From: Lepas anatifera
Taxonomy: Eukaryota; Arthropoda; Thecostraca; Lepadidae
Direction of reading: 5' to 3'
Length of the DNA stretch: 64,000 nucleotides
Assembly (NCBI GenBank): GCA_034440635.1
Contig: JAOTON010000955.1
Span: 1 to 64,000, forward strand
The notes beneath the pieces are model-generated. The model was not told the DNA's origin and searched no databases. It saw nothing but the letters and a program-made list of their open reading frames with translations. This document shows positions 2,796 through 62,665 of this stretch, piece by piece; positions within the stretch are counted from its first letter, which is position 1, and each line of letters begins with the position of its first letter. The translations under genes and the position numbers were made by a program.

Positions 2796-2947
2796 ACACC
2801 GTGCCCAGACGAGCACCTCCGGAGCTGGTGACGTCACTAGTCAGCTGACGATCCATCAAGTTAGTCTGGAAGATGGCGGGACCTACCGATGTAGCGCAGA
2901 AAATTCTGCGGGTAACGCTTATGACTCGGCAAGGATCAATGTCTACG
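2796..2947 (+). CDS. Dscam: Dscam-like exon: C-terminal half of Ig5
   Basis: Acceptor TTTCCTCGGCAG ends at 2795 and donor GTAGGT starts at 2948. The translation contains TSQLTIHQVSLEDGG and TYRCSAENSAGNAYDS, the E-F-G strands of an Ig domain with the second disulphide cysteine (YRC). It ends in INVYG, the strand leading to the next Ig. It starts in phase 2 and ends in phase 1. The exon with the first half of this Ig domain was not found in the window. Confidence 0.9.
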
Positions 2948-3109
2948 GTAGGTCATTACAAATGCCCAGCAATAAGAACTGGTAGTGACTGAAATCAGTT
3001 TTGACACTTTCATTTAGAAATATCTAAGTAAAAACATACGGTAGGACATAATGGTGGACGAGGATGCTCTCTATCATCAAAACTCATGGGAAATCATAAA
3101 AAAATCATG

Positions 3110-3270
3110 GGACGTTAAACTTTGGCTTCTAAATTAGCCCTCCATTGAGGGAGTTGCTCGTTCGGGTGGTGGGATCAGGCTCTCCGTGACAAGTCCCTTG
3201 ATGACTTTAGTGAGACTCCGACTCCAGCAGCCTTACCAGGAACAACTTGAACAAAATTTATATAAAAAAA
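3110..3270 (+). repeat. 5'-truncated SINE (family A)
   Basis: Shares its body and 3' end with the longer copy at 54648-54927: the GTTAAACTTTGGCTTCTAAAT stretch, the GATGACTTTAGTGAGACTCC core and the AAAATTTATATAAAAA tail. The tRNA-like head is missing here. Confidence 0.75.
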
Positions 3271-3420
3271 CAGTAGGCGTGCCGCTAAATTCCGAAATTG
3301 CAGACGTCTGTTAGTTCGTCGTTTTGCAGCGGCACCTCTCTAGCCCCCACTTCCCAAATTCTAGCATTGCAGTTTAGCTGTTTATCTATACTAACTCCGC
3401 TGCCCCTGACTGTGCGTCAG

Positions 3421-3603
3421 GGCCGGCCTCCGCTCTGCCCCGCCGCTCCGTGACGGTCGCCGCCGGCAGCGCCGCCACCCTGCCCTGCCCCGTCGCCGGG
3501 TACCCGCTCTCCGGCTTCGTCTGGCACCACCGCGGCCGCAGGGTGACGCCGGCGCCGCACCGCGCGCTGTCCAACGGCAGCCTCTCGGCAGAGGCCGCGC
3601 CAG
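3421..3603 (+). CDS. Dscam: Dscam-like exon: first part of Ig6
   Basis: Acceptor CTGTGCGTCAG ends at 3420; the donor is G|GTCAGA. The frame opens with GPASALPRRSVTVAAG and carries the first Ig cysteine in LPCPVAGYPL and the core Trp in SGFVWHH. It closes near ALSNGSLS, which corresponds to the conserved NG-L strand of Dscam Ig6. It is phase 1 at both ends and joins 2947 upstream and 4713 downstream in frame. Confidence 0.93.
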
Positions 3604-4099
3604 GTCAGACCGCTAACTGCAGAAACCAAGCATCACAGCATCAAAATGTTGTCAAAGCATTGTTGTGAGTGTAAGCACCTTAGCCACAGGAACTGTAGAG
3701 ACAGTCTGGGTTGGTTGCTCCTCCTCCCAATATTCTCTGACTGAGACGGCCGTGTCCCTCCCCCTCACCTTGATACTATTTCTTGTAATTCTACATTCGT
3801 GACGTGGAAGGGCTGGCTCTAAAGCCAACAGCTCTTTTGGATTTATGTGTTTTTACCCTTTGCTCCTGGTAATAACTGAAATTTGTATTCTAAAGAATTG
3901 CGGGGTGAAGCCCCTCCCCCTCTCCGGTGCTAGCGCCCCCCCATCTTCCTCCCCTCCCTCACCCATTAGAAGATCTTTCCTGCGTCTCTGCCGGGATTTG
4001 CGCAATGATCGTGAAATCTGCTGTCGAGGTGATCTGGCTCAAGTCTTGGTACACCGTTGCGGTCCATCGGGCGTCTGACTTCGGTATCAGTGTGTCATC

Positions 4100-4372
4100 C
4101 TGCGTGGATCCAGATTTCCTGACCGGGGGTGCTGGGATAGGTGGTGCCATTTGAAATAAAATTGTGTCAATGTTTAGAGGCGTGTTGGAGGACTCCGAAT
4201 CGCATATCGGTGGGCGCTACTGGATGGGGGAAGGGGGAGGGGGAAGGGGGAGTCGGGAAACAGCGTGTCAGCGTGCCAGGAACGTTTGAGGGGTAGTCGG
4301 GGCTCAGCATGGGGGTGTTGATGGTCGATCCGGAAATAATTGTTCCTCCTTGCCGCTTGGATCCGTCCATGC
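4100..4372. mobile_element. Probable decayed short inverted-repeat element
   Basis: The segment begins near GTGGATCCAGATTTCC and ends near CTTGGATCCGTCCATG, an approximate inverted pair around GGATCC. This resembles the ends of the better preserved element at 29184-29429. There is no clear target duplication. It is a weak call. Confidence 0.35.
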
Positions 4373-4712
4373 TTACTATCACGTGTTTTTAGCCCTGCGA
4401 AAAATAGAGAGCTGGGGAAGTCTCTATAAAGTAATATCTAATTAGCAAGACACGAGAAACGAGAAGTCTGACAAGCAAAAATAGTCTGATGGTTTTGTTG
4501 GCGCTGTGTGGATGCCGCAGCGTGGGAGAAGAACACTCGACATCCACACTGCTGATCCGGGCTCAATTATCCGGTTGGGTACTCTCTATTAGCCTTTCCA
4601 ATCTTCACAATACCTTTATGACAGGGTGGGAGTTTGGAGACCATATAACCTCAGTAGTCGGTGTATGGTAAAACCCCGTTGTACTGGGACCCGGTGGCCG
4701 TGTGCTCGGCAG

Positions 4713-4796
4713 GGTTGACGGCAGGCGAGTACGCGTGTGAAGCCACCGGAGGGGACGGGAGCAGCGTCGTTGGCGTAGTCGATGTCGTAGTGGTGG
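4713..4796 (+). CDS. Dscam: Dscam-like exon: end of Ig6
   Basis: Short 84-base exon. The acceptor GTGCTCGGCAG ends at 4712 and the donor is G|GTGAGT. It encodes LTAGEYACEATGGDGSS with the second Ig6 cysteine, then VVGVVDVVVV, the last beta strand. Phase 1 on both sides restores a contiguous Ig domain with the 3421-3603 exon. Confidence 0.9.
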
Positions 4797-4918
4797 GTGA
4801 GTGTACGAGATTTCCTTAGGATAAGAGACTTACCCAATAGGGAACTTGTATTTCAAGGCGATGCAGCGCATCAGCAAGCTGACTTTCCAACGCGTTTGGT
4901 AACACCCAAGTGAAGTTC

Positions 4919-5110
4919 ATCTTCTGCTTATGGGCAGAAAATCCTTATCGGTGGGCTCCAATTTTGCATCCTGGGGGAAGGGGATTGACATTTTAAGGGA
5001 CGCCATCGACCTTTCAGGGGACGTCGTGACCATTTTAGGGGCGCTGAGGGTCGATAGGGGGGACACGTGCCCCCTTGCCCTCCTGGATCAGCCTCGTAGA
5101 TTATATCCAA
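4919..5110. repeat. Diverged copy of the 29184-29429 short element
   Basis: Shares several blocks in order with 29184-29429: CCTTATCGGTGGGC, GCATCCTGGGGG, CGCCATCGACCTTTCAGG and GAGGGTCGAT, then the GGACACGTGCCCCC stretch and a trailing CTGGATC. The ends are degraded and no target duplication is visible. Confidence 0.65.
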
Positions 5111-5511
5111 TGCCATGACGTTATAGGTTCTTGAATCTGTCGACGGCTTGTGGAATTATAAGTATAATATTACTCTGTTCGAACACAGTTAATTAAAACG
5201 AGACTACGCGTGTAATTTTTTATCCATCTGGAATGTGTGTCACAACATCCGAGCGAAAATAAAGGGTGAGTGTGAAAGAAAAGTTAATTTTCCGGAGCCA
5301 GGGCAACAAAGCTCAAGCCGCGGCTGTAACGGTTGGTGTTAAACAATGCTGCTAGACAGTTACGCCGGTCACGACAGGGCCAGTGATTTATTGGAGTGCC
5401 ACCGCTGTGGCCCAGCGAAATATCGCCACACTACGTCTGTGTTCACTGCGACCTCCTGAATGTAATCGCCGCAGTCTTTCTGGTCTCTGACTCTTCTCCG
5501 TGTCTCTGCAG

Positions 5512-5796
5512 AGCCGCCGCACATCTCTCCCTTCTCCTTCCCCTCCTCGCTGGCGGAGGGGAAGCGCGCGCAGGCCTCCTGTCTCATCACTTCCGGCGAC
5601 ATGCCCATCACTATCGTGTGGCTGAAGGACAACGTGACGCTGCCGCGCCACCAGGCGCAGACGGAAATCGTCAGCGGCAGGTTCTACAGTAACCTGGTGT
5701 TCCACCACCTGAGGGAACAGCACGCCGGAGTGTACACCTGTCGCGCCGGCAACAGAGCGGCCACCGTCCAGCACTCGGCGACGCTCAGTGTGCGAG
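5512..5796 (+). CDS. Dscam: Dscam-like exon: complete Ig7
   Basis: A single 285-base exon (acceptor GTCTCTGCAG, donor CGAG|GTCAGT) encodes a whole Ig domain. It starts PPHISPFSFPSSLAEGKRAQ, with cysteines in QASCLITSGDMPI and VYTCRAGNRAATVQ, core Trp in TIVWLKD, and the final strand ATLSVR. In arthropod Dscam1 this domain comes from a large cluster of alternative exons; here only one copy is present. The donor end of this exon is copied many times in the array that follows. Both ends are phase 1. Confidence 0.95.
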
Positions 5797-6250
5797 GTCA
5801 GTGCCGCTACATGAGCAGTGTGCAAGGTCAGTACCACTGCAGCACTCAGTGTGCGAGTTCAGTGCCGCTACATGAGCAGCGTGCGAGGTCAGTACCACTG
5901 CAGCACTCAGTGTGCGAGTTCAGTGCCGCTACATGGTCCATGTGCGAGGTCAGTACCACTGCAGCACTCTGTGTGCGGGGCCAGTGTCACTGCAGCTTTC
6001 AGTGTGCGAGGTCATTGTCACGCTCAGTGTGCGATGGCAGTGTCACTGTAATTATCAGTGTACGAGGTCAGTGCCACGTTCAGTGTGTGAGGTCAGTGCC
6101 ACGTTCAGTGTACGAGGTCAGTGCCACGCTCAGTGTGTGAGGTCAGTGCCACGTTCAGTGTGCGAGGTCAGTGCCACGCCCAGTGTGCGAGGTCATTGTC
6201 ACGCTCAGTGGCGAGGCCAGAGCCACGCTCAGTGAGCGAGGCCAGTACCA
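5780..6250 (+). repeat. 25-bp tandem array built from the Ig7 exon end plus its splice donor
   Basis: The basic unit is about 25 bp, for example GTGCGAGGTCAGTGCC followed by ACGCTCAGT; some units are longer with a CACTGCAGCACTCAGT insert. The first unit is the real exon end and donor (CTCAGTGTGCGAG|GTCAGT at 5784-5802). About nine later copies keep an intact AGGTCAGT donor. The exon frame stays open through the array to a stop near 6138. Confidence 0.92.
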
Positions 6251-6909
6251 ATGCTGCCGCCGAAGAAATCCGAAAGATTACAACCGTAACATTGCAGCCA
6301 CTCATCATGACATGAACCCGTTGAGAACGTTATGACAGAACTCGAGGCATTTTACCCTGTATAGCGGCGAAGATAAGAAGAGAGGGACTGAGCTGGGTTG
6401 GGGGCTCACTATTCGTGACAGTGAGGGACATGAGTACCTGAGAGATCAGTAGGGTAGTGCTAATCTCGTCTGTAAGGAGGTGCAAGCATTGTGGGTGTTA
6501 GTTAATTGTATATGATGTTTTAGCAGCGACGTTGTGACAGTAGCCACAGATGTCATGTGTCTACAGATACGGCCCAGAGATCAAGATGGAAAGAAAAAGA
6601 AAAGAAAATAAAACGCGTATGATTCATTAAGCATGCAGGCTTTTGCCTTCGTTAGAAAAAAATATATATTGACCAGTACAGTCTACGACATTTATAACTC
6701 ATCGCGTTCTATTTTTAATTTACCAGTGTCAAATCTTTCAATACTTGTAGAAAAATTATGTAGTAATGCGTGAAACTCTGATAACCTGATGATGACTATG
6801 ATAGACCATCCAACCCTTGCAGTGCGGCGGTAGCAGACTTGTGAAGCGCTGGAATGTTCTGGACGCAGTAGCGGTGTCCGGTACTGACAGCAGCTCCTGA
6901 CGTGCGCAG
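6251..6909. other. Intron sequence, nothing recognised
   Basis: Non-coding stretch between the donor array and the first Ig8 exon. I see no repeat family, RNA gene or coding motif. Confidence 0.5.
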
Positions 6910-7029
6910 TATCGCCGCGCTGGCTGCGCGCCCTCGCCGACCGGGTGGTGGCGGTGAACGGGGACGTCACGTTCAACTGCTCGGTGACTGCCAGGCCGGC
7001 CGCCACAGTCAGATGGACCTCGGCAGCAG
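6910..7029 (+). CDS. Dscam: Dscam-like exon: first half of Ig8
   Basis: The acceptor CGTGCGCAG ends at 6909; the donor is GCAG|GTCAGG. The frame reads PRWLRALADRVVAVNGDVTF with the first cysteine in FNCSVTARPAA and the core Trp in TVRWTS. Both ends are phase 1. The next exon, 10384-10560, completes the domain at the expected position. Confidence 0.9.
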
Positions 7030-7248
7030 GTCAGGCAGCTGGCGAGCCGGTGCGGACGCCGGCTGGCACGGCCACCGCAGCGGACTCCCGCGCTGGTTCA
7101 GACACTCGGGTGACCACAGTCCTAAACATTTGGAGGCTTCGTGCCTGCCACGCTCCCGACGCAGCAGCAGTGTCCTGGCCATCGTCAGCACACGAGTGTG
7201 AGGCTGGCCAACAATAGGCATACAAATGGTTCTGATAAAAGTATTCAT

Positions 7249-7441
7249 GGGGGAATGGTAGTGGAGTGGTTAGCTCAGCCGACTTGCACGCAGCCGACCC
7301 GGGTTCAAGGCCTGACGACTTCCCTGAAAAAGGGCAAGCTAGCTCCTGAGACACCCTTCCGAGAGGGAAAGGGTTGGTGATTCTGTATGACCCTGGCAGT
7401 TGATGCGTCGCTACGCCTAAAAATTGTTAAATATATTTTTT
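7249..7441 (+). repeat. tRNA-derived SINE (family B)
   Basis: The head has pol III promoter-like boxes: GTAGTGGAGTGGTTAGC (A-box-like) and GGGTTCAAGGCC (B box). The body ends in TTGATGCGTCGCTACGCC and an AT-rich tail. An opposite-strand copy at about 19918-20112 shares head, B box and the GTTGATGCGTCG 3' block. Confidence 0.8.
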
Positions 7442-10383
7442 TCATGTCACTGCAGGAAGGTGTAAATACTACCCTACCCCCCCACCCGCTTTAGATTGGT
7501 TGAGTTTAAACGATCCAAAAGAAATGAATCTCAACTCACTTTTATGTGTGGCCTTTCAGGTCCCTGGCGTGGTGACTAGGCTATAGGGAAATATAACCCA
7601 AACCAGCAGCAACACACTATTTTCACCTATATGAGACCCTCGTGACCGGCGAGCGGACCAATAAGTCGCTAAATGCGCACTCTGGGGCTGAGTAGCTGTT
7701 ATAAGGCACAAGCCGAAGAGGATGATAATGACTCCTTGTTTGTGATGTTGAAACCTCTGGTCGCAAGTCGCCAATACGAGGCGCCTTCCGACTTCCAATT
7801 GCAGTCGTAAGTGTTTGCACATCTCAAACACTATTGAACATTAAAAGTCGGCTGAGGAATAGTTTATCTCGAGTTTACTCAGCTGATTGAGTTTTGCTAA
7901 AAGCGCAGAAAAAAGTACCAGGGTTCTACCGGAATGATTGACCTCAGGCAATCTGAGATTGTATGGAAAAGAGAGTGGTGCCTAATCTGGGGAATGGGGC
8001 TTACCAGATGAAATTCTGAAGCTAGAAAGTCACTGATAATTTTTTACATTTACTGCCGCTTACGAGGTTATGAAATCGGTTGCAGCAAGTGGTATTCGTA
8101 GCGAATTGCTCATTTTGTATTGATAAAAGCTTAAATGTCTCAATCAAAGTGGTAAGTGAAGATCATGTGTAGTCTTGGTAAAGAACTTAATGGCAGACTT
8201 TTTCTCATTTCCATAACCTCTTATTACAAATAGAGGAAACATGAAAGCAGTTACTTATGTATGTTTCTATTTTAGTCACAGATGTGCGTTGATTACGGTT
8301 GTATGCAAGTACGCCGGGAAAGATCCTGTGTAATTTCTGGAAAATTTCATATTTTTCTAATCGTGTTTGCCAGAATCCATTTATGGAAACAAGCGTATCT
8401 TTAATTGATATAGCCCTCTTAAAACTTCGGTTGTTCGTGGTCTGGGCTTCTCCAGCTCCAGTTCAGAAATCATTCCTTTCGGAAAGGGACCGGAACTCGG
8501 CGCTAAGTGCTCTCGTCTGTTAAGCTGGAGGCCGACAAAGACACTGTTCTGTGCCGTAATAGGTGGGCAATACACGGCATGGACCCGACCTATGCCCTTT
8601 TCAGCCACACTCCATTATATGACCACTCTGCAGTAACAGCTTTCTGTGCGACAAAGGGTGAAGGGTAATCGCCCTTTCGTGGAAGTATATTATCGGGTAT
8701 TTTATCAATACAATTGAAGATATAATCTGAAGCAGAGGAAAATTCTGCGAAAAGTCACCGGGCAAGCCTTATTTCTGCTTACTGACCTTCTGTGTTGATT
8801 CGTCGTCTTCAATAAAGATAAATGGGTGCTCTCGGCAAACCATTTTCATTCATTACGGACAACTTTCGACTGCCGCAGAGACGTTTATGCAAACTTATTG
8901 AATGCGCTGGCTCGAATTAAAAGAGCAAGGGATCCCGTTCTAATCCTCGTTGGCTATGCTTACCACAGATGTCTCAAGCATTGTCACAAACTAAACCCTT
9001 CGTAACAAAAAAAACTCAGATTGTATGCACGGACGTCGCCACGAATTTTTACTGAGAACAGACTTCAGACTGGCTATGACAATGGGATGGGAGGCAAAGT
9101 TTGGCTGTCTCTGACAACACTGCCAATACACCTCATGTACAATATAATTTGGAACATTTGCGTCGGTCCATACAGTTAAGAGGAAGATAATACAAAAGAA
9201 CTTAAGATGAGTCCCATGGGTAAGAATGCTTCCGTATCTATCGTTAGTTCTGGATAGTGATGGATCTAGGATTTCGCAATGTGGGACCAAACACCAAGAG
9301 GGCTGTCACATGATAGCGGAGGAAGGAAGTCTCTCCTGCATAAGACCTATCCCGGCGGCAACTGAATGTGTTTTTTAGGGCCGGGTGTTTCAAAAACCTT
9401 GCCGGAATGCAATGCATCTAATTGTATCAGAGATGCGGCCATATAGCTTGCAGCTGACGCTGGAAGAGGGTCTCAATCAAGAACGCCGAGGAAAAGGGCG
9501 CCTCTCCTGAGCCACTCTTCAAAGTGAATTTTAAGTCACATATTCCGCATATTTGAGGCATTTGAAGGCGTTTGGCCATTCATGAGTGGCATATCCAGAA
9601 GAGGAGCCCCGGCACGCCAACCAGAGCTGCCGACCAGGGGCTTGTATGTGGGTGACGGGGTCCCAACGCCGCGCTGTCGACCCGATAGCCTCCAGGACTC
9701 AGTGCACCTCCCTCCTACTGGGAAGTGACCGTTACAATGCCAGGACTGTGTTTTAGTGCGTCACCACTGGAAGCACCTGGGTCGAAGCTGACAGCTGCCG
9801 ACGACAGTCCATCTTGTAGATTGTGGTCGGTCCGAGAAAGGTCCGCTGAACATAACGGTTCAGCGTCGGGGACGGCAAATGCATTTCGGCAGACCTGATA
9901 AGTTTTCTCTATGATTTGTATAAGGCCTAAGGACGCGTGATGTATGTTTTTAAGCGTGAGCTTACCTAGAGCTTTACTTCTGGGTAATCTCGTTTTAATT
10001 GAGTAAGATTGTTAAAAGCGGAAGCTCCACGCTCTCTAAAATCAGACCTTCTATAACTTCAAAACCTAAAATAATATCTCTATTCCAAAGTTCCAAAACC
10101 TAAAATTGTATCTTTTTCCCCAAAAGGACCAAATTTTAGTCGTTTTCCTTTAGAAATACCATGATTTTGCGATTTTTCTCGATTTAGCCCCCAAAACGTA
10201 GGTTGGGACCCCTCCAAAAGTCTCTCCGGCCCCCTCCAAAAGTTGCTCCTGAATCCGCCAATGATAGAAGCTGTCCCAGTCTTAGTGCTTTCTTCAATAG
10301 GAACCCGTACCACCTGTTCCCAGTTCACGTTCAGACCAGTGGAGTATGCGTGCGATTGACTCTGCGCCTGCCCCGCGCGGCAG
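7442..10383. other. Long intron inside the Ig8 domain
   Basis: Between SINE B and the second Ig8 exon I see no credible exon, RNA gene or intact transposon. Short frames in this stretch have no recognisable domains. At about 10030-10260 an AT-rich, low-complexity segment containing the phrase AAAACCTAAAAT twice looks like old repeat debris. Confidence 0.5.
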
Positions 10384-10560
10384 GGAAGGGCCCGGCCGTG
10401 CCCATCCGCAGCTCGGCCGACGGCCGCATCGTCGTCGACGCAGGCGCCGGCACGCTGACGCTCCGGGGGGTCGTCGTCTCCGATGCCGGCAGCTACTCTT
10501 GCCGTGCCTCCAACGGCGTGGGCGTGCCCCTGCAGCGAAGTGCCCGGCTCACCGTCACGG
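10384..10560 (+). CDS. Dscam: Dscam-like exon: second half of Ig8
   Basis: Acceptor CCGCGCGGCAG ends at 10383 and donor GTCAGT starts at 10561. It encodes KGPAVPIRSSADGRIVV, then TLTLRGVVVSDAGSYSC with the second Ig cysteine, and NGVGVPLQRSARLTVT. The alignment to family Ig8 is gap-light across the junction with 7029. Both ends are phase 1. Confidence 0.93.
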
Positions 10561-10809
10561 GTCAGTAGGGGAGGGAGCAGTGTACAGAGCAGGTGTAGTT
10601 CTGGTCAGGGCTGAATGTCTGGCCAGTGTGGAAATTATGCCTTGTAGAGCCCTGCAGAGTACTGTAATCATGGTGCTGAGTGTTTAGTGCTTATCTGCGT
10701 AGTGCTTTTGGTAGTATCACTTCATTTCCGCGCTGAGCACATGATATCCCCTATCCAGTTAGCGGTGCATCACATTCTTTGTTATTTCATTCATCCTAGC
10801 CTTGTTCAG

Positions 10810-11095
10810 CTGTCTAGCGTCAGTGGTCGCCACGCCACCGACCAGAGGGTCCCTGCACCGTTTGTGTTCGCCTGTCTAGCGTCTGTGGTCGCCGCGGCGT
10901 CTCTGTACTGTTGGTGTTCGCCTGTCTAGCGTCAGTGTTCGCCGCAGCGTCTCTGTACTGTTGGTGTTCGCCTGTCTAGCGTCAGTGTCGCCGCAGCGTC
11001 TCTGTACTGTTGGTGTTCGCCTGTCTAGCGTAAGTGTTCGCCGCAGCGTCTCTGTACTGTTGGTGTTCGGCTGTTCAGCGTCAGTGTTCGCCGCG
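10810..11095 (+). repeat. About 50-bp tandem array ending just before the Ig9 acceptor
   Basis: Four to five units of TGTTGGTGTTCGCCTGTC, TAGCGTCAGTGTTCGCCG and CAGCGTCTCTGTAC. The last degenerate unit runs into CGCCCCTCTATTGCCAG, the real acceptor at 11125. In the repeats the matching position reads CGTCTCTGTACTGTTGG, so the acceptor AG is lost in the copies. Confidence 0.85.
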
Positions 11096-11125
11096 GCACT
11101 GACCGCAGCGCCCCTCTATTGCCAG

Positions 11126-11378
11126 TCCCGGTCCGGTTTGAGCAGCACCAGCGCAACGTCTCGCTGCCGCGCGGCTCACGTCTGCGCCTGCGCTGTGACC
11201 CGACCGGTGACCGGCCGCTGCAGCTGACCTGGTACCGGCACGGCCACCTGGTGACCACCTCTGACCCGGCGCTGCTGGAGGTGGCCGAGGTGGGCCGGGA
11301 GGACGCCGGCACCTTCACCTGCATGGCCACCAACAAGCACGGGGACGACAGCGCCTCGTGGCGAGGTGGTTGTGACAG
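11126..11378 (+). CDS. Dscam: Dscam-like exon: complete Ig9, with one extra base
   Basis: The acceptor CCCCTCTATTGCCAG ends at 11125 and gives the family-typical start V-PVRFEQHQRNVSLPRG. Cysteines lie in RLRCDP and FTCMATN, the core Trp in LTWYRHGH, and DAGTF is the typical E-F loop. The exon is 253 bases where 252 are needed. After DDSASW the sequence must drop one base (about 11362) to give EVVVT and end in phase 1 at the strong donor ACAG|GTGAGA, matching the next exon. This is an assembly error, an allele-specific lesion or a real frameshift. An acceptor at 11108 was rejected because it gives the wrong phase. Confidence 0.88.
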
Positions 11379-11993
11379 GTGAGACCAACGGTTTGAGTGC
11401 TGTGGCTAAAACACCTTTTGTGTGTCCAGAATCCGTAAGATCTCAGAAAGGTATAATTTAGTGAAGAATGCAGGTTTTGGTTTTGGTAACGGTGCTGTTT
11501 AGAGGTGCTTAGATAATCCATGGAGCAAGCGAAACATGTTTGTGAAACGGGTTAACCTCTGTGATCCAAATGGCAGGTTCAGAATATATGGGTTAAGCTG
11601 TTTTTTTTTGACGAGCAACAACAGCATTTTGCAGCGAAAAGGAACCTGTAATAACCTGACGCAACACTCAAACTCGTTGCGAAAGTTTTAACAAGTAACC
11701 GTAGCCACAATTCATATAAGGCGAGCTGGAAAACCATGAAGGATGTCCTCGTACCCTTATTAAAAGTGAGCGTCGGTTACCGTAACATTGCCCACGGTTT
11801 ACCACCTCGTGGAGTTCTTCAACGCATAAAGCTCTTCGGTTGGTGTCATTTCGTCAGAGATACTGAATAATGAAATCTTAGGAGGGCTTCAGATTCAGCA
11901 TCTCTATCTTTCTACCACGAAATGTATGGTTATGATCATGTACTATATCAGCCTCCTTCCTTCACATATACACATTCGATCGGTTGTCACCAA

Positions 11994-12449
11994 TTAAAGG
12001 GAATGTGGCACCTTGGTCGGATCCAGGAATTTAGCGTAACAAGGGGTATTTTTAGCCGAAAATCATGAAAACGTCCATGATTTTTCTGAAAAATGTACAA
12101 TGAGTTCAATATTTTGATCTTTAAAATGCTCCTCTAAGGTAAAAAGAAACCTATACCTGCGGATGACGTCATGATGTGGCAACTGCTACCATATTCAATA
12201 GGATTCAAGGGCTTCAATTGGCTGATTACTCACCATGACGTCAGCTCTGTCGTCACACCAGCAGCTGACAACTGTGGCCGCCTGGCTTGGGTACATGTGG
12301 GGTACATTTCAGGTAGGTGTTTAGCTTTATTCCACGGAAATTTTGAGTTTCAAGACAAATGATATCTTGAGTACCGGGTTCTCCGACATGTTTTACAACT
12401 TGGCGATGTCAGTTAAAATCACGTTATAGAGGTGCCACATTTCCTTTAA
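11994..12449 (+). mobile_element. TTAA-flanked MITE, copy 1
   Basis: An element of about 450 bp with terminal inverted repeats AGGGAATGTGGCACCTT at the left and AGGTGCCACATTTCCT at the right, flanked by TTAA on both sides. Two more copies lie at 53164-53622 and 58170-58628 in the same orientation. TTAA duplication is typical of piggyBac-type transposition. There is no coding capacity. It ends 50 bases before an exon. Confidence 0.9.
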
Positions 12450-12499
12450 GCACCCGGTGCCCACATAACTGGGCGGCGCGGCCGTGTGCGGCGTTGCAG

Positions 12500-12696
12500 A
12501 GACACCCGAGGCTCCCGTGTCACCCCGTGTCGTCTCCGCCCACTCCCGGTCTGCCCTGATCACCTGGGAGCCGCCCTACGACGGCAACAGCGCCATCACC
12601 CATTACGTCATACAGTACGCCTTGACGACACCGTACCGACACGCTGAAAGGGAGGACGCTTCTACTGGAGATGGAACTGAGCGCGACATATGGGAG
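12500..12696 (+). CDS. Dscam: Dscam-like exon: first part of FN3-1
   Basis: The acceptor GCGGCGTTGCAG ends at 12499; the donor is GAG|GTAATG. The frame reads ETPEAPVSPRVVSAHSRSA, then LITWEPPYDGNSAITHYVIQ, a classic fibronectin type III start with the conserved Trp and the DGNS-I--Y turn. It starts in phase 1 (joining the frame-corrected Ig9 exon) and ends in phase 0. Confidence 0.92.
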
Positions 12697-13619
12697 GTAA
12701 TGTCAATTGGTTGGATTTGGTCAGTGCTCCGACTTTTATGTGACTTTCTATGACTTTGAAATAAAGCAGAACCCGTTGTACCTATGTTATATCATCAAAC
12801 ATGGTTTTGCTCATAGATACCCTACAATGTTTTGGATTTCATCCTTCAAATGTGTGGAGTGTAAGAGGGCTTCGATTGATTCCATGCTTGCCTCGGCTCA
12901 CGGCTAAGGTCAGCTGAGGGAAGGGTTAGAAAAAATACACTCAAAACGCCATATGATTGAATCAGTGTAAGACTTGTGACTGTAGGTTTATCATTGGCCC
13001 GCAAATAATTCACATATAGCGTACTAATGTATGATAGAGAAGGTTCCATACTGAGTTGTATTCCTTACTGGGTTGTAACAAATTTGTTAGATACTTCTCT
13101 AGCAGAGTGGAAGCTGTTTTTCTTTCAGATAACTTAGAAGCGTATAAGGTAGAAACATAGTATACATTAGTAGTACAGTATAGTAGGTATAATGTAAAAA
13201 AATTTTCGAACAGCTCGAATAACCTCAAGTAATGCTCCTCTCACACCTTATTGATCAAAGTTAATTGCAATACGACTAATCCCATTCGTGCTGTTGGTTT
13301 ATGTGTAAAGACCTAGCTCTCAACTCTATTCAGATGATCCCTATTGAAAAGTGCTCTCCGCTGAACTGGTCGGGCAGTTTTGAAAGGCGTTAACGGTGTG
13401 GTGAACCACCGACGTACTGAGCCTTCCTCAGACTTCAGAGGCTCTGGAAAGTTGGAAGTTAAGTTTTGCTCTCCTGGCTTCTAGCCGTGAGCGTGAGTTG
13501 GGACTTTGGTGCGTTTTAGACTTCTGCCGGTGTCGGCATAGGCGGTAAAGCGGTCGAGTATCAGAACACAGCCAAAGCAAAGGCTACAAAGGGAATGTCC
13601 CAAAGTATCTTACTTGAAG

Positions 13620-13935
13620 TTTTGGGGTCAAGGTCATTGACCTATGATTTCACAGTATAGTGTATTTCCTATAATGAACATTTTAACTAGCACTATTGCA
13701 ATCGTTGGGCGGTAAATGAGGATTGGCCTTGACCCAGGACCTTGACCTTTCAATTATGACCTTTGACCTTGGCCTTGATTTACTTTAACAATGACGTTCA
13801 ATAATATACGTCATACTGGGTAATGCAATTTGACCGGAGGTGCTAGGGCCAATTACCTTGAAAATGTTTGTGTGACCTTGACCCAATGACCTTCGACCTG
13901 GACTTTGATATTCATGTGAGGTGACCTTGACATAT
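13620..13935 (+). repeat. Dispersed repeat rich in TGACCTTGA words, copy 1
   Basis: Homologous in block order to 22585-22905: clustered TGACCTT words, then GACGT...ATACGTCA, a TTTGACCGGAGGTGCT block, and a second TGACCTTGA cluster with TTCATGTGAGGTGACCTTG. TGACCTTGA is the complement of the TCAAGGTCA monomeric nuclear-receptor site. Whether any is bound is unknown. Confidence 0.7.
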
Positions 13936-14096
13936 AATCTCGTTTATATGGTGTTAGGATATCACCACTCGGTCTCCAATGAACTGGTTCGACCACGTGA
14001 TTGAGGCGATCTCAAAATATAGGTTTGACTTTGAAAGCCTGTAAGTAAAAAAATTCGACCGATTTTCAAATTTTAAATGATCGGAGATCAAATAGC

Positions 14097-22905: not shown

Positions 22906-22950
22906 TGAGGATGCTCAGTGATGATTATTGTGATGATTATTAGGCGTGAA

Positions 22951-47116: not shown

Positions 47117-47129
47117 CTACGGGCACACC

Positions 47130-51836: not shown

Positions 51837-53163
<1,327 letters not shown>

Positions 53164-53622
53164 TTAAAGGGAATGTGGCACCTTGGTCAAATCCTGGAAT
53201 TTAGTGTAATGAGGCGTACTTTTAGCCGAAAATAATGAAATCACTCATGATTTCTCTGAAAAAATGTACAATAAACTCAATATTTTTATTTTTTAAATAC
53301 TCCTCTAGAAAAAGAAATAAATATCAGCCTGTGGATCATGCCATGATCTGGCAACCCCTACTATACTTGCAACGCTTCAAGGGCTTCGATTGGCTGATAC
53401 TCATCGTGACTTTAGCATATGTCGTCACACCAATAGCCATGACAACTGTGGCCTGCTGCTAGGGGTACAGGAGGGGTACATTGCAGTTAGGTTTTAGTTT
53501 TTTTCTACGGAAATCTCGAGTTCCAAGACAAATGGTATATTGAGTAACGGGTTTTCCGACTTGCTTTACAACTTGGCTATCTCAGTTAAAATCGCGTTAT
53601 GAAGGTGCCACCTTCCCTTTAA
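53164..53622 (+). mobile_element. TTAA-flanked MITE, copy 2
   Basis: Same family as 11994-12449: TTAA, AGGGAATGTGGCACCTT, an internal body with GGCTTCGATTGGCTGAT-like block, and the inverted end AAGGTGCCACCTTCCCT followed by TTAA. Confidence 0.9.
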
Positions 53623-54647
53623 AGGCAACACTTGGTTCGGCGTTCTAAAAATATAGAAGTTGAGCCCAAAGGATTTTTCCATTCTTTTACTTTTAAATTT
53701 TAAATTACTCTTGAAATTTTCAACTTTGAATAACCACTTTGAATTACCTTAAGTTTTGAAAGCTATTTTGGTTTTTTATATAGCCTTCAGCAACCTTTAA
53801 AGCCTTTAACTTGCAACGAAAACAGTCTTTGAACTTATCAGTATCTTAACAATACGATTTTCTAATATCACCAAATTTTCAGTGTTTTAATAGATTAGCA
53901 AAACTAACAAAAAAATGAGGTTTGAGCCGTTTTTGGTTATGCAATATGACACAGACTGGCCTCGTTCTCAAAATCCAATTTTAGTGCATCAGTGCCGTAT
54001 AATCAGATAAATCTTACTTATAATTTTGGTGATGGACGCTTTTCAAATCTGAACCTAAAAATAACAGTGTTTATTTCGGGAACTAAAATGTTTAAGCCGG
54101 AACCTAAAAATAACAGTGTTTATTTCGGGAACTAAAATTTTTAAACCAGACTTATTACACAGGCTTTTTACTATTCAATTTACTTACACTTTGTACGGCT
54201 TTAAATTTTTACACGATAAAATTTCATTGGGACTAAATAGGCATGAGGGTAGTTTTCACCGTATATGTTGAAAGGAAATAAAGTCAGTGAAAAAATCAAA
54301 ATTTTAGAACGTATTTCCCGGAATATCCGAAATCCGAACCAAGTTTCGGCATGCCTGGGTCCATGGCTTTCACGCATAAAAGTTCCAATCCACTGGTATA
54401 GATCCCATTATGCTCTACGCCATTGATAACTCAATTCGCAACCGAAGAAAGCGCAATATTTTTAAGGATACGTAAGCCAATTTCTCGCTTTGGAAGTTAA
54501 ACCAACGTTAACTGACACAAGCCGGCAACCCGAGATATTTCATATACAGATTGACCAAAACTTAATCACGACCAAAATATGTTTAAATCTGATGGTCTGC
54601 AGCTTTTCAAGAAACATACCCTTCTTTTCCCCGACCTTCTTTTCGCC
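53623..54647. other. AT-rich intron DNA
   Basis: Contains a 50-base tandem duplication at about 54052-54148 (GAACCTAAAAATAACAGTG and following). Nothing else is recognised. Confidence 0.5.
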
Positions 54648-54927
54648 GCCCCGGTAGCTCAGTTGGTAGGCGTTGGGCTCCGGCCCGTGCTCGAGCATGC
54701 AGTGGCAGTGCATGTCTGGTGAGGGGCAACTGACTGGGGGGGTGACCTGAGCGGGGCGGCCGTCCTGTGCTTTGTGGGCGTTAAACTTTGGCTTCTAAAT
54801 CACCCTTCATTGTGGGGTTGCTCGTTCGGGTGGTGGGGTCGAGGTCTCCGTGCAAGTCCATTGATGACTTTAGTGAGACTCCGACTCCAACAACCGAACT
54901 GAGAACTGGACAAAATTTATATAAAAA
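54648..54927 (+). repeat. tRNA-derived SINE (family A), long copy
   Basis: The head GCCCCGGTAGCTCAGTTGG resembles a tRNA 5' end and A box. The body shares GGCGTTAAACTTTGGCTTC, GTTGCTCGTTCGGGTGG and the GATGACTTTAGTGAGACTCC core with 3110-3270, and it ends AAAATTTATATAAAAA. Confidence 0.82.
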
Positions 54928-56974
54928 GTCCGGATTTAACTTTTTTGTCACGATGGAAATTCTGCCCACATATTATGCTTTACGGAATATACCTTAAATG
55001 GTTCGCAAAAGGCCTTTGAAATTTTCTGAAATATACAACCAAATCGGGCAGATTCCCCTGAGAGTTTTTAAAAAATATACATTTAACAGGGGTATGGCTC
55101 GGTATTTAGGGAGGATCTACTAACAAACCGAGCATTATTGTGTGCGGTGCGTTCTTCGCTTATAACGAAGTCTATAACGGATCGCTGTTGGCCCTAACAA
55201 AAGCGTGACCACAGCCTGGGCCCACCGAGAGAAAGGGCGGATGCTGGCAGTACAGTTCCATCCTGCGCTATCACCGCATTGGCATCCGTTTCGTCATTAT
55301 TGGCAGCTGACCAGTGTTCAGGAATATTCCGAGCATCTTTGGAGTGAATACCCATACAGAGAATATCCATTTAGAATGAATGACATCCACGACGACAAGG
55401 TGGCAGCTGGAACAGCAGCAGAAGACTCGTGGCCTTGGGCCGTCCCGCGCCTGGAGAGGCCTGGGAGACCACACGCCCCTCCTTCCCAAAACTTGTGACC
55501 TCAGACAGAAGCCCCTCCACCCTGACAGCGGGGCGCCCACCAGGGGCGGCGATGTTTCCTTCTTTGGCTCGGCCGCCGTATTTGTAATGTAGGCGGGCAG
55601 CGCGCCACCCTCAGTGCAGGACAGCGCCATATCTCGCTCCACTGAGCAGTCCCTGAGTGGACGTCTGACCAATGGTGAACCCAGGTACGCATCAGATCAG
55701 CATGTCCACTTCAGTCAAGATTCCGTCTACATCACTTTCCGGGGCATGATTGCCACCTAGGTCGGCCGTGAGCGCTCCCCTCGCCCGGTTCGTGGCCGCG
55801 TGCCTCCGGCTGGCAGCGGGCCTGCCCCGGTGTGGGAGCCGGGGAACGGCGTCACCTGAGCGCCCTCCACCCGGCCAGGGCCGCCGCTGCGGCACACAAC
55901 GCCACCACATTCCACGCTCCGCCGCCGGACGCAGCGGCGCGCTCAGCCACGCTACCGCTCGGCGCGCCCGCGACAACAAACCGGCCACACACCGCTTCAG
56001 ACGATCGACAACACCGTCTGGTTGGTGGGAGGTTCCTCCAGTGCATGACCTCCCAGACTGCTGCACCACGACACGCCCCTGCCCCGTCGCACTACAAAGA
56101 GCCGTGTCGCAGCCGGCAGCGCAGTGCCTGCCGCCTGAGGTTTCAGCGGCGCCGTTACCGGTTTCGAAACACGCTGAGGGGGCAGGTGCTGCGGTGCGCG
56201 CCGACTGGGGGGGGCGGTGCGGGTCGTATTTGAAGCGTCCTACATTTCCGAGAGGCGTAATTGGGACATGCCTGAGAATCGGTCCGCCTGAGTAGGTCTC
56301 AGAGTGAACCGGTCAATGCCGGTCTGTGGTAGCATCACCATCCGATTCCTATCAGCGGCCAACAGCGAGGCCAGCCGAACACCGGCCGGCGGCTCAGGAA
56401 GGACAACAGAGCCAGTCCGAAACGCTTCACACCAAACGTGAACTGATGCTCTTCTACTACACTGAAACACGAACACTGTACAGGAAATAGAAAGGAAACC
56501 AACAATGAAACTATCACACAAAAACCTGATCAGCTAGATTAGGAATCGTGTGGCAAACCGCGGTGTCTACGCAAACACGAGGTGTTCTTCCGCCAACAAA
56601 TGAGATTAGACAAGGATGAACTCAGCATCATATGACGGTACAAAGACCAGTTTACGATACCGCCACCGTGATAATTCAAACGAAGCAGGCAAAGAGCCAA
56701 AAAAGGCAATCGTGGGACAGAGGTTGATTTGCACGATTTGCAAGGTCCTGATTTTTCATTTTCGTTGACGGGTTTCATTCCAAAAGCGAATTTACAGTCC
56801 GTAGTTTTCTATATGAGATTTAGTACGATAAAGTCGTAGTGACACCTAATGCCCCGGATAAACAAAAACTGTAAGAGCAGGGGATTTAGGAATTAGTCAA
56901 GGCATATGCCGCATTCTTTAAAGAGTGGCTTACTTTTATGATGGATTTTGAACGAATAAAAGTTTTGTAAAGCG
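54928..56974. other. IAP intron with a CpG-rich patch
   Basis: Between about 55740 and 56230 the DNA is GC- and CpG-rich with long open frames on both strands but no recognised domain. It could be an unannotated exon, a promoter-like island or compositional noise. The flanking sequence is ordinary. Confidence 0.4.
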
Positions 56975-57348
56975 TGTCGAAAAAACCACTTTGGGAACAT
57001 TTCATTTCACCCAAAACCTCGCTGTATCAAATTTTTCTCACGCTTTAAACTTAAAAATAAAGGGGGTATTCAACTATTTTAAGCGATAAAGGATTTCCTT
57101 TCCACCTGACAGCGCATGTCACGTGATATACGTTAACAAATAACATCGCCTCCGCGATGTTATACAACGCAAGAAGCCAGATTGGTAACGACACGTGTTG
57201 TCAACCCATCGTAGCACAAGGCGATATTTCTGTTTTGGGCGACTGAAGCGGAAACGAAATGTGGTTTCCTGACTTTCACACCTATTTTGTCCATAAATGG
57301 TTATTTTTATAATTTCCCCAAAGTGGTCTCCCTTTCAGCACACCCGCT
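56975..57348 (+). mobile_element. Probable MITE with imperfect inverted ends
   Basis: The left end is GTGTCGAAAAAACCACTTTGG and the right end, inverted, is GTGTGCTGAAAGGGAGACC followed by ACTTTGGGGAAATT. The termini are related but gapped. No clear target duplication was found. Confidence 0.55.
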
Positions 57349-58169
57349 CCGTGAATAATCCAGTTTTTTTCTTTTTTCTTGGCTCATTTACCCTAGCTAT
57401 TGGATCCAACTGAAAAATGCACTCAATTATCAAGTGTTCAGAAATGAAGAAAAACAGTGAAAAATGTCACCATCACCCCAGACTTTCACACATATATCCG
57501 TCAGCTGTACTTTGGTGGTCTACAGCAGACGTTTAAGGCTCTGCGGCGAATGAATCATGTTCTGGTACTGATACGCTCTTGACAAATTCAGCTCGGCTTA
57601 AACGAGGCCGTGACGATATTGTCGCCGGGCGCCGGACCAGCACGATTGTTACTGTTCCACATGGCGCAGTTAAGGAGGTGACTCAGCGTCACGGGCGGAG
57701 CGTCCGAGGTCGCTTCAGCGCTCTGAAGTGCAACGGGAAGTTAAGCACGAGACACAGAGCCACTGCAGGCGAGTTCAAACTCCAACCCAGCTCGGGGATA
57801 ACGACAAAGCTGTTGTAGCAGACCTGCAGTTTCAAAACAGGCAGGCTACGACGAAACAAATCGTCTCATTTCGGGCGCTATTACATGATGCACAAACTTA
57901 GCTTATATCGTCTTGCCACGCATTTGTGCTGGTACCAACTTCTAGGATGTGGTTGAGGTTGGGCGGATTCCTTAACGCCCACGTCTAGCAGAACTTCCGC
58001 GCACTTATGGATGTGACAGTCAAAGTCCGCTTGACTACGCGCAGTATACAGAACGCGTTTTGTGCCACATTTCCAGGATCCGTACTTTGCACTGCCGAGT
58101 TTAAAACACGTTCCAAGTTGCACTGGTAACGGACAGGCCAGGTTCAACAAGATTGTCGACGAAACTTCA

Positions 58170-58628
58170 TTAAAGGGAATGTGACACCTTGGTCGAATCC
58201 TGAAATTTAGTTTAATTAAGGGGTACTTTTAGCCGAAAATCATGGAAACATCCATGATTTCTCTGAAAATGTACAATAAGCCCAATATTTTGATTTTTAA
58301 AATGCTCCTCTAGGGGAAAGAAATAGATATCTGCCTGTGGATCATGTCATGATCTGGAAACCACTACCATATTCAAAACACTTCAAGGGCTTCGATTGGC
58401 TGATACTCATCGTGACGTCAGCATATGTCGTCACACCAACAGCCATGACAACTGTGGCCTGCTGCTAAGGGTACATGTAGGGTATATTTCAGGTAGTTTT
58501 TAGCTTTTCTCTTCGCAAATTTTGAGTTTCAAGACAAATCATAAATAAAGTACCAGATTTTCTGGCATGCTTTACAACTTGGCTATCTCAATTAAAATCA
58601 CGTTATAAAGATGCCACATTCCCTTTAA
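58170..58628 (+). mobile_element. TTAA-flanked MITE, copy 3
   Basis: Third copy of the family: TTAA, AGGGAATGTGACACCTT, shared interior, inverted end AAGATGCCACATTCCCT, TTAA. By eye it is most similar to copy 2. Confidence 0.9.
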
Positions 58629-59285
58629 TGATCAAGCATTCTTAAGCACACTTGCTTAGACGCCAGAGCAAAGATAAATTGTGAAAAAGCGCCTGAATTT
58701 TCTACCAACTACCTACCAGGAAAGAGAAAGGGGGTCCTCTCACGGCATGAAGATTAATGGCGATGTGACGGCGCTAGTAATAAAAATGTGTTTCATAAAT
58801 AAACGAGCCAAATCCATTGTTTTGTGATAAAGGAAATCCGAGTTCCATGGAAACTCAAACATTTTCCCTTCGGGGTAAGAAGATTTGGATTCTATGAGGT
58901 TCTTTCGTCTAATGATAACGAAAGGGGTTTATTTTGGAAGTATAAACGCCCAAACGTTTCTTCTGATCCTTGAGATCTCCTGATCATCGTCATCTGCTAG
59001 GATTTCGAATCTTCAATCAGTTTCAAAGTTCATATTTCCAGCTGAACCATTATTCTAATATTATCGTGGCGGAGAAGGTATGGCAGCGACGTCATAATGA
59101 CAATATTATTCAAATATTGGGGACACCCTCTGAAATCCATGACAGGTTTGTCCAGTGATTAACTCATCGATGTTAGAACTTTCAGTTTTTTTTACCCAGC
59201 ATTATTCTGGCAAACCTGCTCTACATACATTAAAGCTAAAATGAAAAGTCATTTTCGGAAGGAAGGCAGCATTTTTATATAAACG
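58629..59285. other. Intron sequence, nothing recognised
   Basis: No coding motif, RNA gene or repeat is evident. Confidence 0.5.
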
Positions 59286-59674
59286 TACAGCCGGTTCCAC
59301 ACTGATTGGTAGGTATTTATGTCAATATTCTAAGAAATATTTAAAAACGATTACACTTCTCACAAAAGATTGCGTCTCTAGTTATGTATATTGACGAGCT
59401 CTTTACATATGGGCCCCTGCGAACTGCATGAGACGTCAATTTGGAAAATTATAAGACAAAAACTGTTTTCACCGATCGCGATGGTTTTCTGTGTCCTTTC
59501 TCAATTGCTTCCGAGTTTTGGACTCAATGAAATATTTTTGCACGTCAGTTCAGGCACCCAGTTAAAACGCAGCAAGTGAGGCCACAATGATGTCGGCAGG
59601 AAACATCACTTGAGAGATATTTCGCAAAGACGACCGCGGCCTAATACCTACCAACCAGTATGGAACCGGCTGTA
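59286..59674 (+). mobile_element. mariner-like MITE, 385 bp, TA-flanked
   Basis: The element 59288-59672 has inverted ends CAGCCGGTTCCACACTGAT and (inverted) CAGCCGGTTCCATACTGGT, continuing as TGGTAGGTATT on both sides, about 30 bases in total. It is flanked by TA. The size, TA target and CAG start suit a Tc1/mariner-type non-autonomous element. Confidence 0.82.
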
Positions 59675-61654
59675 CATATCCGCGCTTTAGCTCAATTTCG
59701 AGGTATTTCAACATAAAACTCGTGACTTGGCCCATAGTTTTATGAACAAAATATCGCCAAAACTTGTATGTAGCCAGCATACGCTTATTTTCGACAGACA
59801 ACTACAAAACATTATGTCTAGGTCTCTCTCAATTCAAATATTACCACAAATCGGTTTAAATTAGTAAAAATTTGGAACAAGGCGAGACATTTAATTGTTG
59901 TATCATTAATTTCAAGAGATATGTCATGGGTGAACTTCCCAGATAACTCCCGGAGCTCATGTGAGGAGAGCGGGGTGACGCGATGACCTGAGGAAATTAC
60001 AGAGAGGGGATGTGCCAAAAGACCGAGCTTGTCTAGTCGGCAAAGAATCAACATCAACATGGTTTGGGAAGTTCCAATGTGGTATGTTACGACACATATC
60101 AAAACAACATGCGTCAGAGCGCATCTAAGCACAACATACTCACCAAGCTAACACCAAGCACGTGACCGCGCGGCCAACTTTGGCTCCCCAGGACAAACAA
60201 CACACAGTCAGAGGTTCGGCCTGTTGGCACCGGCGCCTGGCAGCCTTCCCGACCTCCATTCCGGCGAGAAGATTTGAGGATCACGTCAAACCAGAGAGAT
60301 TGGCAGATGGTTTTACCAACAGCGGACTGGTCACAGGCTAACAAAAAAGACTATATACAAGGGGCGTGCGTTTCCCCGAGGCCCTGCAACACCCTGCGAA
60401 TAGGGCTGTTGAGAAGTTTGAACGCTGGAAAACTATCTATTCGCGGCCGAATACGTGTTAGCTCTGAGAAACCGATCTGTACTTTCGAAAAGCTCCAACA
60501 CTGTTGTTGATGGAGATTAAACCAAAGAATCCATTGGTTTAGAAAGTTCAAAAGGAAAAATTATATCCATTCTTCCCTAATTACTTTCCTGCCGACCTTT
60601 CTATCGTGTTTCATGCCATTTCGTAAGTCGTTCATTTATCGCAGCTGGACTTCCTGTACGATTTCCTCGCGTTTTTTTTTCAAGAATAAAGATAAGCGAT
60701 CTAACAAACAATACGGCAACCTTTACCATCGGTCTTGAAAAAACATACGCCCAGTTCTCACCAATAAAGACATTTACTTGTTCCCTACCGAGGTCCCCCT
60801 ACATATAGATAGAATATCCCATACGAGCAGCCCCGGCCAACTATCAGGCTGACGGAAAGCCATAACTGCACAATTGAACTGTAACCTTACTGTAACTATA
60901 TACCAGGGATGTTCGTTTCTCAGTGACCTTACAAAACCCTCTAGACATGGATTTTGAAAAGTTTCAAAGCTTGAAAAACGAAAAATCGGTAGCCAGAATG
61001 CATATGAGCTTTGAGAAAAGGGCCTGCATTCCTTGAGGAGGTGTTTCACAGCAGCTGAGTACGATTATACTGAAAACCTAATCTATTCAGAGAGCGTACA
61101 GGAAAAATAGCAACAGATTCGAAGAGAATCCTGTACTAAAGCATAAAATGAACATTCATTTTACTACATCCTAAAAATAAAAGTGCTACAACATTGAGAT
61201 TTACTTTTAATGTATCTTTTAGCAGCGCCACTTTGAGAAAAAACACTCGCTCCAGTCTTTCTTTGAAAGACTATTTCAAAGTTTCATTTCTTTGAAATAA
61301 AATTATACCAAAATGTAAATGAAGCTGGCAAATCACCCAAATAACGTGGAGTAACGCTAATTAACATGCTCCAACTTTCCAGCTAATACAATATCGCGGT
61401 AGAGTTCAAAATAGACACATCTAAAGAATCACCAGGTTAGGTCAACAGTCGATGTCTTCCCATTTGAAATAACCAAAAAAGTCGAGAAATAAAAATATTA
61501 GGTACCCTCTTTGTGGACAAGACGCTTTATGAAGTCTCCATTATCAAGGATGGATTAAAGCCGTCCAGCCATGCCCAAACTATCGCACCTCCTACCGAGC
61601 CTAACCACACAGCATCATCCCATCATGAGATTTTTCTCCTCCACGGCGGCTGAC
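59675..61654. other. Intron sequence between the mariner MITE and the first BIR exon
   Basis: Segments at about 60385-60510 and 60920-61050 look like diverged copies of one another (TTGAGAAGTTTGAACGCTGG and TTGAAAAGTTTCAAAGCTTG). Nothing else is recognised. Confidence 0.45.
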
Positions 61655-61873
61655 CTGCATAAAAGAAGCCGGCCTCTGCCAGCTGCTGCGGCTTCTGAGC
61701 CAATGCCGGCGGCCAAAACTGGTAGCTGCGCAGCCGCGACTCGACTGTGGCGTAGCTGGGGTGCACCGGCGCGTAATGTTCGGAAATGCCCAGCTGGGAG
61801 AGGTCGCTGGTGTGCGCCGCGCCGTGAGGCGTCCGCACGTTCAGGTTGGTCGAAGTCAGCCGGCCCCGCCGAT
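61655..61873 (-). CDS. Iap: IAP exon: first half of the BIR domain
   Basis: The minus-strand acceptor CTGTTGGGCAG precedes 61873; the donor is GCAG|GTCAGC. It encodes RLTSTNLNVRTPHGAAHTSD, LSQLGISEHYAPVHPSYATV, ESRLRSYQFWPPALAQKPQQ and LAEAGFFYAG. HPSYATVESRLRSYQFWP with the AEAGFFYAG close is the classic N-terminal half of a BIR fold. Both ends are phase 1, joining VSDHVKCFHC in the next exon. The first 20 or so exon bases resemble the unit of the 55-bp array that precedes it, so the exact 5' border is slightly uncertain. Confidence 0.9.
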
Positions 61874-62665
61874 CTGCCCAACAGGGGAGCACGTGAGATA
61901 ATGCGATATATAAGCCCGCCCCGCCGATCTGTCGAACAGGGGAGCAGGTGAGATAGTGCGAGATGTAAGCCCGCCCCGCCGATCTGCCGAACAGGGGAGC
62001 ACGTGAGATAGTGCGAGATGTAAGCCCGCCCCGCCGATCTTTCGAACAGGGGAGCACGTGAGATAGTGCGATATGTAAGCCCGCCCCGCCGATCTGCCGA
62101 ACAGGGAAGGCTGTGAGATAGTGCGAGATGTAAGCCCGCCCCGCCGATCTGCCGAACAGGGGAGCACGTGAGATAGTGCAAGATGTAAGCCCGCCCCGCC
62201 GATCTGCTGAACAGGGGAGCACGTGAGATAGTGCGAGATGTAAGCCCGCCCCGCCCATCTGTCGAACAGGGGAGCACGTGAGATAGTGCGAGATGTAAGC
62301 CCGCCCCGCCGATCTTCCCAACAGGGGAGCACGTGAGATAGTGCGAGATGTAAGCCCGCCCCGCCGATCTTTCAAACAGGGGAGGTCGTGAGATAGTGCG
62401 ATTGTAAGCCGCCCCGATCTCCAAGGGAGCACGTGAGATAGTGCGATATGTAAGCCCGCCCCGCCGATCTGCCGAACAGGGGAGCACGTGAGATAGTGCG
62501 AGATGTAAGCCCGCCCCGCCGATCTTCCCAACAGGGGAGCACGTGAGATAGTGCGAGATGTAAGCCCGCCCCGCCGATCTTTCAAACAGGGGAGCACGTG
62601 AGATAGTGCGAGATGTAAGCCCGCCCCGCCGATCTGCCGAACAGGGGAGGTCTGAGATAGTGCGA
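61855..62665 (-). repeat. 55-bp tandem array carrying acceptor, exon start and an E-box
   Basis: About 14 units. On the minus strand: ATCGGCGGGGCGGGCTTAC, ATCTCGCACTATCTCACGTG and CTCCCCTGTTCGGCAG. The true exon follows the last CAG with ATCGGCGGGGCCGGCTGAC, so each unit is acceptor plus about 20 exon-like bases. Nearly every unit has CACGTG. Units are highly similar; one near 62400 is shortened. Confidence 0.95.

Follow-up and report, generated by a model that had tools for sequence, protein, structure and literature searches.

A stretch of 64,000 nucleotides (nt) from the barnacle Lepas anatifera (assembly GCA_034440635.1, contig JAOTON010000955.1, positions 1 to 64,000 of the forward strand), referred to here as the window, holds two genes that we modelled tail to tail, a Dscam-like gene on the plus strand and an IAP gene on the minus strand, and both carry large tandem arrays at their exon-intron borders (Table 1). 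The 26 exons, D1 to D20 and I1 to I6, were modelled by hand from AG/GT borders, chained reading-frame phase and homology; the end of I6 is a stop codon and not a splice border, and the models contain 51 splice borders in all (26 acceptors and 25 donors). The arrays were taken from the output of Tandem Repeats Finder, with overlapping rows merged, a length of at least 100 base pairs (bp) and microsatellites excluded, which gave 12 arrays. Left out of these 12 were the (TA)n and (AT)n tracts, a T39(TC)81 tract and a 94-bp duplication at 54051-54144. All the arrays listed in a preliminary description of the window, which had been made from the letters of the sequence, were recovered near the places where it had put them.

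Ten of the 12 arrays come within 50 bp of a modelled splice junction at one of their edges (7 to 48 bp away), nine of them at acceptors and one at a donor. They occur in both genes and on both strands, as the preliminary description held. These ten are all the arrays that lie in or touch the gene models, and the remaining two are intergenic. The basic units of the ten junction arrays measure 25 to 69 bp; Tandem Repeats Finder also gives longer, higher-order periods. The association had been judged unlikely to be due to chance, and our random placements bear this out. When the arrays were placed uniformly, a mean of 1.82 of the 12 fell near a junction and ten were reached in 0 of 20,000 trials, while placement of the ten arrays with no more than 40 bp of exon overlap gave a mean of 0.78, ten being reached in 0 of 5,000 trials. 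The acceptor of I1 is unproven; once it is dropped, nine of 12 arrays are near a junction, against a mean of 1.79, and 0 of 20,000 uniform placements reach that number. Counted at the level of the unit, five arrays have units that extend 5 bp or more to both sides of a border, compared to 0.38 expected (P = 5e-5), or four arrays without I1 (P = 6e-4). Acceptors are affected far more than donors (9/26 versus 1/25, Fisher P = 0.011; 8/25 for acceptors without I1, P = 0.023). These results support the conclusion that the large arrays are anchored at exon borders beyond chance.

Another possibility is that GC-rich minisatellites arise in any GC-rich DNA, in which case the GC-rich exon edges would attract arrays without any tie to the splice sites. 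The GC content of the modelled exons is indeed 67%, compared to 45-46% in the introns and 52-75% in the arrays, and matching the GC of both flanks in the placements lifts the expected number of near-junction arrays from 1.82 to 3.83 of 12. However, the ten observed remain above this GC-matched expectation (ten were reached in 55 of 200,000 trials), and the skew between acceptors and donors is present despite a similar GC fraction in the 150-bp flanks, which is 0.51 upstream of the 16 array-free acceptors and 0.49 downstream of the 26 exon ends. We therefore regard an explanation by base composition as unlikely.

Table 1. Gene models, tandem arrays and the D14 microsatellite of the window
Feature	Position	Strand	Description
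Dscam-like gene	2796..37239	+	20 modelled exons (D1-D20); one or more exons missing between D9 and D10
D4 donor array	5784..6250	+	exon D4 5512-5796; unit of about the last 15 exon bases plus GTCAGTG; 16 copies
D7 acceptor array	10849..11094	+	50-bp unit; ends 31 nt before acceptor 11126; exon copy not above chance
D12 acceptor array	24758..26016	+	57-bp unit; acceptor 25980; pyrimidine tract, CACAG and up to 48 exon bases; 21 copies
D14 T39(TC)81 microsatellite	27404..27603	+	polypyrimidine tract of acceptor 27606; not counted as minisatellite
D18 acceptor array	30488..30825	+	33-bp unit; ends 15 nt before acceptor 30841; exon copy not above chance
D20 acceptor array	36143..37083	+	two related sub-arrays, 29 and 31 bp; ends 8 nt before acceptor 37092; exon copy not above chance
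Intergenic array	39691..39855	.	41-bp unit; between the gene models; 2452 bp to nearest modelled junction
Intergenic array	40707..41660	.	75-bp unit, 13 copies, 96% matches; between the gene models; 899 bp to nearest modelled junction
IAP gene	42336..61873	-	6 exons modelled, I1-I6: BIR over two exons, UBA-like, two linker exons, RING
I6 (RING exon) acceptor array	42607..43063	-	69-bp unit upstream of acceptor 42559; exon copy not above chance
I4 acceptor array	44083..45318	-	49-bp unit; acceptor 44090; unit TTTCAG|CGGCCCG; 27 matches
I3 acceptor array	47157..47629	-	26-bp unit; ends 40 nt before acceptor 47116; exon copy not above chance
I2 (BIR exon) acceptor duplication	48678..48818	-	68-bp unit, two copies; acceptor 48709 plus 32 exon bases
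I1 (BIR exon) acceptor array	61858..62669	-	55-bp unit; presumed acceptor 61873; 14 copies

In five arrays, one at a donor (D4) and four at acceptors (D12, I1, I2 and I4), the unit extends across the border and includes exon sequence. These are the cases that the preliminary description had named as the clearest examples of a unit that copies the border itself, although I1 and I4 are the weaker of the five. The exon sequence repeated in the D4, D12, I2 and I1 arrays outscores every control (none of 300 non-coding and none of 103 to 107 exon controls reaches it, for each array). At I4 the match is 9/9 from the first exon base, a score also reached by 4 of the 108 exon controls and 24 of the 300 non-coding ones. 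The splice signal is kept in many of the copies: with the real site included, AG is retained in 20/21 copies at D12, 14/14 at I1 and 2/2 at I2. At D4, GT is retained in 11/16 copies. The 27 matches at I4 comprise 22 in register (17 with AG and five with AA) and five that are degenerate or out of register. Note that AG at D12 is conserved only marginally beyond expectation (P = 0.047, computed from rounded column frequencies), and I4 shows no such excess.

Several points weigh against reading the arrays as minisatellites that are anchored on, and copied from, the exon borders. The sample consists of two genes in one window that was picked for its odd look. Among the border-spanning arrays, the exon match of I4 is short (9 bases) and the border of I1 is unproven, while the arrays at D7, D18, D20, I3 and I6 do no more than adjoin the border, exon sequence being repeated in none of them above chance. 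At 36641-37091 and 42560-43078, which correspond to the D20 and I6 arrays and where acceptor-region copies had been described, exon copying thus did not stand; the I6 array does continue in degenerate form to about 12 nt from its acceptor (0 of 500 controls reach the score), and the gap between the D7 array and its acceptor is weakly array-like (8 of 500). In the same way, five of the six IAP acceptors do have an array within 50 bp, as had been claimed, but copies of the border itself are confined to those of I1, I2 and I4, and homology does not settle where the 5' border of I1 lies. The plain count of arrays that overlap a junction is also weak, at six against a mean of 3.3 to 3.4 (reached by 666 of 8,000 circular shifts and by 1,698 of 20,000 placements), because random arrays land across whole exons; with a 50-bp margin the count is ten, a level seen among the shifts in 5 of 8,000 and among the placements in 2 of 20,000. 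Moreover, 43 small tandem repeats, chosen by hand from the tandem-repeat output, show no enrichment at junctions (five within 50 bp versus 4.47 expected). Finally, 5 of 52 exon ends (the 51 splice borders and the stop end of I6) are self-copied, versus 13% of positions off the borders. This last count is no higher than the background because the arrays span 12% of the window (outside the arrays, 2% of positions are self-copied), so it was dropped as a measure, and the edge-distance and unit-level tests were used instead. Of the suggestion that exon borders seed local amplification, the bias of the large arrays to borders is therefore what stands; the small repeats and the self-copy counts speak against a general seeding bias. 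The small repeats were also considered as early stages of the arrays and rejected, since they lack enrichment at junctions.

The reading-frame phases chain along both genes and break only at D9/D10, where an exon is missing. The Dscam-like gene encodes immunoglobulin (Ig) and fibronectin III domains (Pfam FN3_DSCAM-DSCAML_C, E = 4.8e-33), and the best PDB relative of D1-D6 is 3dmk, an eight-Ig Dscam chain; a search for homologues of D10-D20 gave three matches and was uninformative. We read D20, the last exon modelled in this gene, as a transmembrane segment, and I3 of the IAP gene as UBA-like; Pfam gave no match for I3. Compared with a partial protein of the barnacle Pollicipes pollicipes, the IAP product is identical at 91 of 120 aligned positions (76%), and the alignment is continuous over the I2|I3 border, which supports the model of that border only. 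With I1-I3 as the query, Pollicipes is the top match, with 79% identity over 65% of the query, the next species-named match being a beetle (59% over 48%). With I3-I6 it ranks 82nd of 92 by E-value, because the Pollicipes protein is without the RING, and none of the matches listed has a higher identity than its 87%, which covers 22% of the query. Exon I1 was found in two ENA proteins with 81% identity; as for its 5' border, the sequences of the two relatives with this exon are available only from a methionine about 11 codons further in. For the phase to chain, one base must be discounted in each of D7 (11126-11378) and I2 (48428-48709). The frame is lost by this one base despite conserved flanking domains, and the Pollicipes protein is continuous over the region of I2; either an assembly error or a real mutation would account for it in both exons.

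The preliminary description knew of no named class for arrays of this type, but such structures are already called mirages in amphioxus, as passages of PMC3087553 and PMC3902484 set out. Those of PMC3087553 describe these minisatellites in Adh3 and in the globins BflGb6 and BflGb9, with units of 10 to 160 bp, and those of PMC3902484 add PGBD5 and cite troponin C; the mirages of amphioxus are reported to show length polymorphism and somatic instability and to leave regular splicing undisturbed. The arrays of the window resemble the amphioxus mirages, as far as these passages describe them, in that the unit spans the border with exon sequence in five cases, in that both 5' and 3' borders are involved, here in two genes, in that the units fall within the range given in PMC3087553, and in that many, although not all, copies hold the AG or GT. 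In contrast, the host here is a barnacle, nine of the ten junction arrays are at acceptors, half of the ten abut the border without spanning it, and all of them come from one assembled sequence. The five border-spanning arrays thus fit the structural class of the mirages. The five abutting ones copy no exon sequence above chance; they therefore fall outside the strict definition and were not assigned to it.

We consider it probable that mirage-type minisatellites have grown here inside pre-existing introns, and that productive splicing uses the copy next to the exon. A segment of about 25 to 70 bp, straddling a splice border or lying just inside it, and nearly always at an acceptor, would have undergone tandem duplication, followed by amplification within an intron that existed beforehand. 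Growth would proceed into the intron only, presumably since selection acts on the coding side. For a productive mRNA, the spliceosome would take the copy that adjoins the complete exon, presumably because that exon comes with its donor, and the other copies would be decoys, neither clearly purged nor clearly retained. The units differ between introns: when the first 200 and 400 bases were compared, only 2 of 78 array pairs were alike above 40 shuffles, namely the two D20 sub-arrays, and D4 with I4. In addition, the far ends of nine array-bearing introns match the units no better than shuffles do (the observed score is attained by 42 to 200 of 200 shuffles), so the arrays look as if they were added to existing introns. 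Taken together, the differing units and the uncopied far ends suggest a probable local origin of each array within an existing intron.

Potato RdRp is reportedly a case of intron gain by tandem genomic duplication, and the arrays of the window could likewise be steps of intron gain, in which an AGGT segment duplicated in tandem makes new introns. They share with such a process the local tandem duplication of a segment that includes a splice signal. Passages of PMC3087553 cite the Rogers model for this route and propose intron gain from tandem AGGT duplication for amphioxus globins; in the window, AG|GT is present in 16 of the 20 upstream D12 copies. Yet both ends of the intron should then be copies of the unit, unlike the far ends of the nine introns here, and AG|GT is absent from the border units at I1, I4 and I2, all of which makes a role in intron gain very improbable. 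The same AG|GT copies at D12 (15 of 20 by a stricter pattern) would also suit recursive splicing, with each unit acting as a ratchet point and the intron removed stepwise. Only this one of the four border-copying acceptor arrays has them, however, and we regard stepwise removal as extremely improbable. Introners, which are repeated sequences in introns with splice signals, are comparable to the arrays as intronic repeats that carry such signals, but the units here vary by intron, as seen in the partial comparison of array pairs.

Copies other than the real site score at least as high as it does in 4 of 20 cases at D12, 5 of 13 at I1, 16 of 26 at I4 and 1 of 1 at I2. Nevertheless, the number of upstream matches that are both in frame and open is 0/20 at D12, 0/26 at I4 and 0/1 at I2, compared to 4/13 at I1. 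Since the upstream copies at D12, I4 and I2 break the frame or hit a stop, productive mRNA would mostly need the copy adjacent to the exon, and the remaining copies look like tolerated decoys. The I1 array is traversed by two open frames of the minus strand (61618-62726; 360 and 367 codons), so in-frame inserts would result from some of the acceptor copies upstream. Downstream of D4, two donor copies at +30 and +270 (within 5797-6250), both with GT, would extend this exon in an open frame.

The preliminary description had proposed that multiplied splice sites are either tolerated or used. Tolerance fits these results. Use of the sites would serve either protein variation or a lowering of expression via unproductive splicing, and it would be in keeping with the AG kept in many acceptor copies (D12, I1 and I2), with the many copies that score as well as the real site, and with the in-frame, open copies at I1 and D4. 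Against it, 5 of the 22 in-register copies at I4 have lost AG and 5 of the 16 copies at D4 have lost GT, and the conservation of AG at D12 exceeds expectation only marginally. Use for protein variants, moreover, does not suit three of the four border-copying acceptor arrays (D12, I4 and I2), which offer no upstream copy that is in frame and open, a result that has no bearing on unproductive splicing. That the extra sites are in use appears to us improbable.

The pyrimidine tract beside a GC-rich exon is nucleosome-poor, and the bias of the arrays to acceptors might reflect breakage at this tract. If general, the bias suggests that 3' splice sites have some particular property of mutation or chromatin. 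We tentatively propose, as a view that may well prove wrong, that acceptors across the genome of this arthropod lineage are hotspots of minisatellite growth, where the pyrimidine tract would break, repair would leave a short duplication and the duplication would expand; mirages would then arise repeatedly from gene architecture in distant animals, instead of being peculiar to lancelets. No arthropod case of border arrays was found among open-licence papers on border minisatellites or on barnacles, as judged from titles and the starts of abstracts among the matches listed, and the passages searched of papers on Daphnia repeats and on the genomes of two barnacles make no mention of border arrays. 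As far as the searched literature shows, these would be mirages in a new phylum. Passages of PMC3087553 and PMC3902484 describe mirages in lancelets, and the barnacle case would make them a feature of distant animal genomes. Such arrays are also natural tests of spliceosome choice, with one acceptor to be taken among about 20 that resemble each other. Gene annotation may be misled by them: we read the start of the Pollicipes IAP record, which is partial, as intronic sequence.

At 27382-27605 the preliminary description had placed an array at an acceptor; the repeat does adjoin the D14 acceptor, but it is the T39(TC)81 microsatellite and not a minisatellite. The two intergenic arrays, at 39691 and 40707, may adjoin undetected 3' exons of either gene. 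Scans of the window for tRNA genes and for Rfam families (gathering threshold) found none. Two intronic stretches, 4903-5115 and 29157-29475, have translations that look similar by eye and GGCGCC-type motifs, and are perhaps copies of one dispersed repeat. Finally, the product of the open frame at 1081-1956 resembles a Penelope-like retroelement in its C-terminal part, the end being of the GIY-YIG type.

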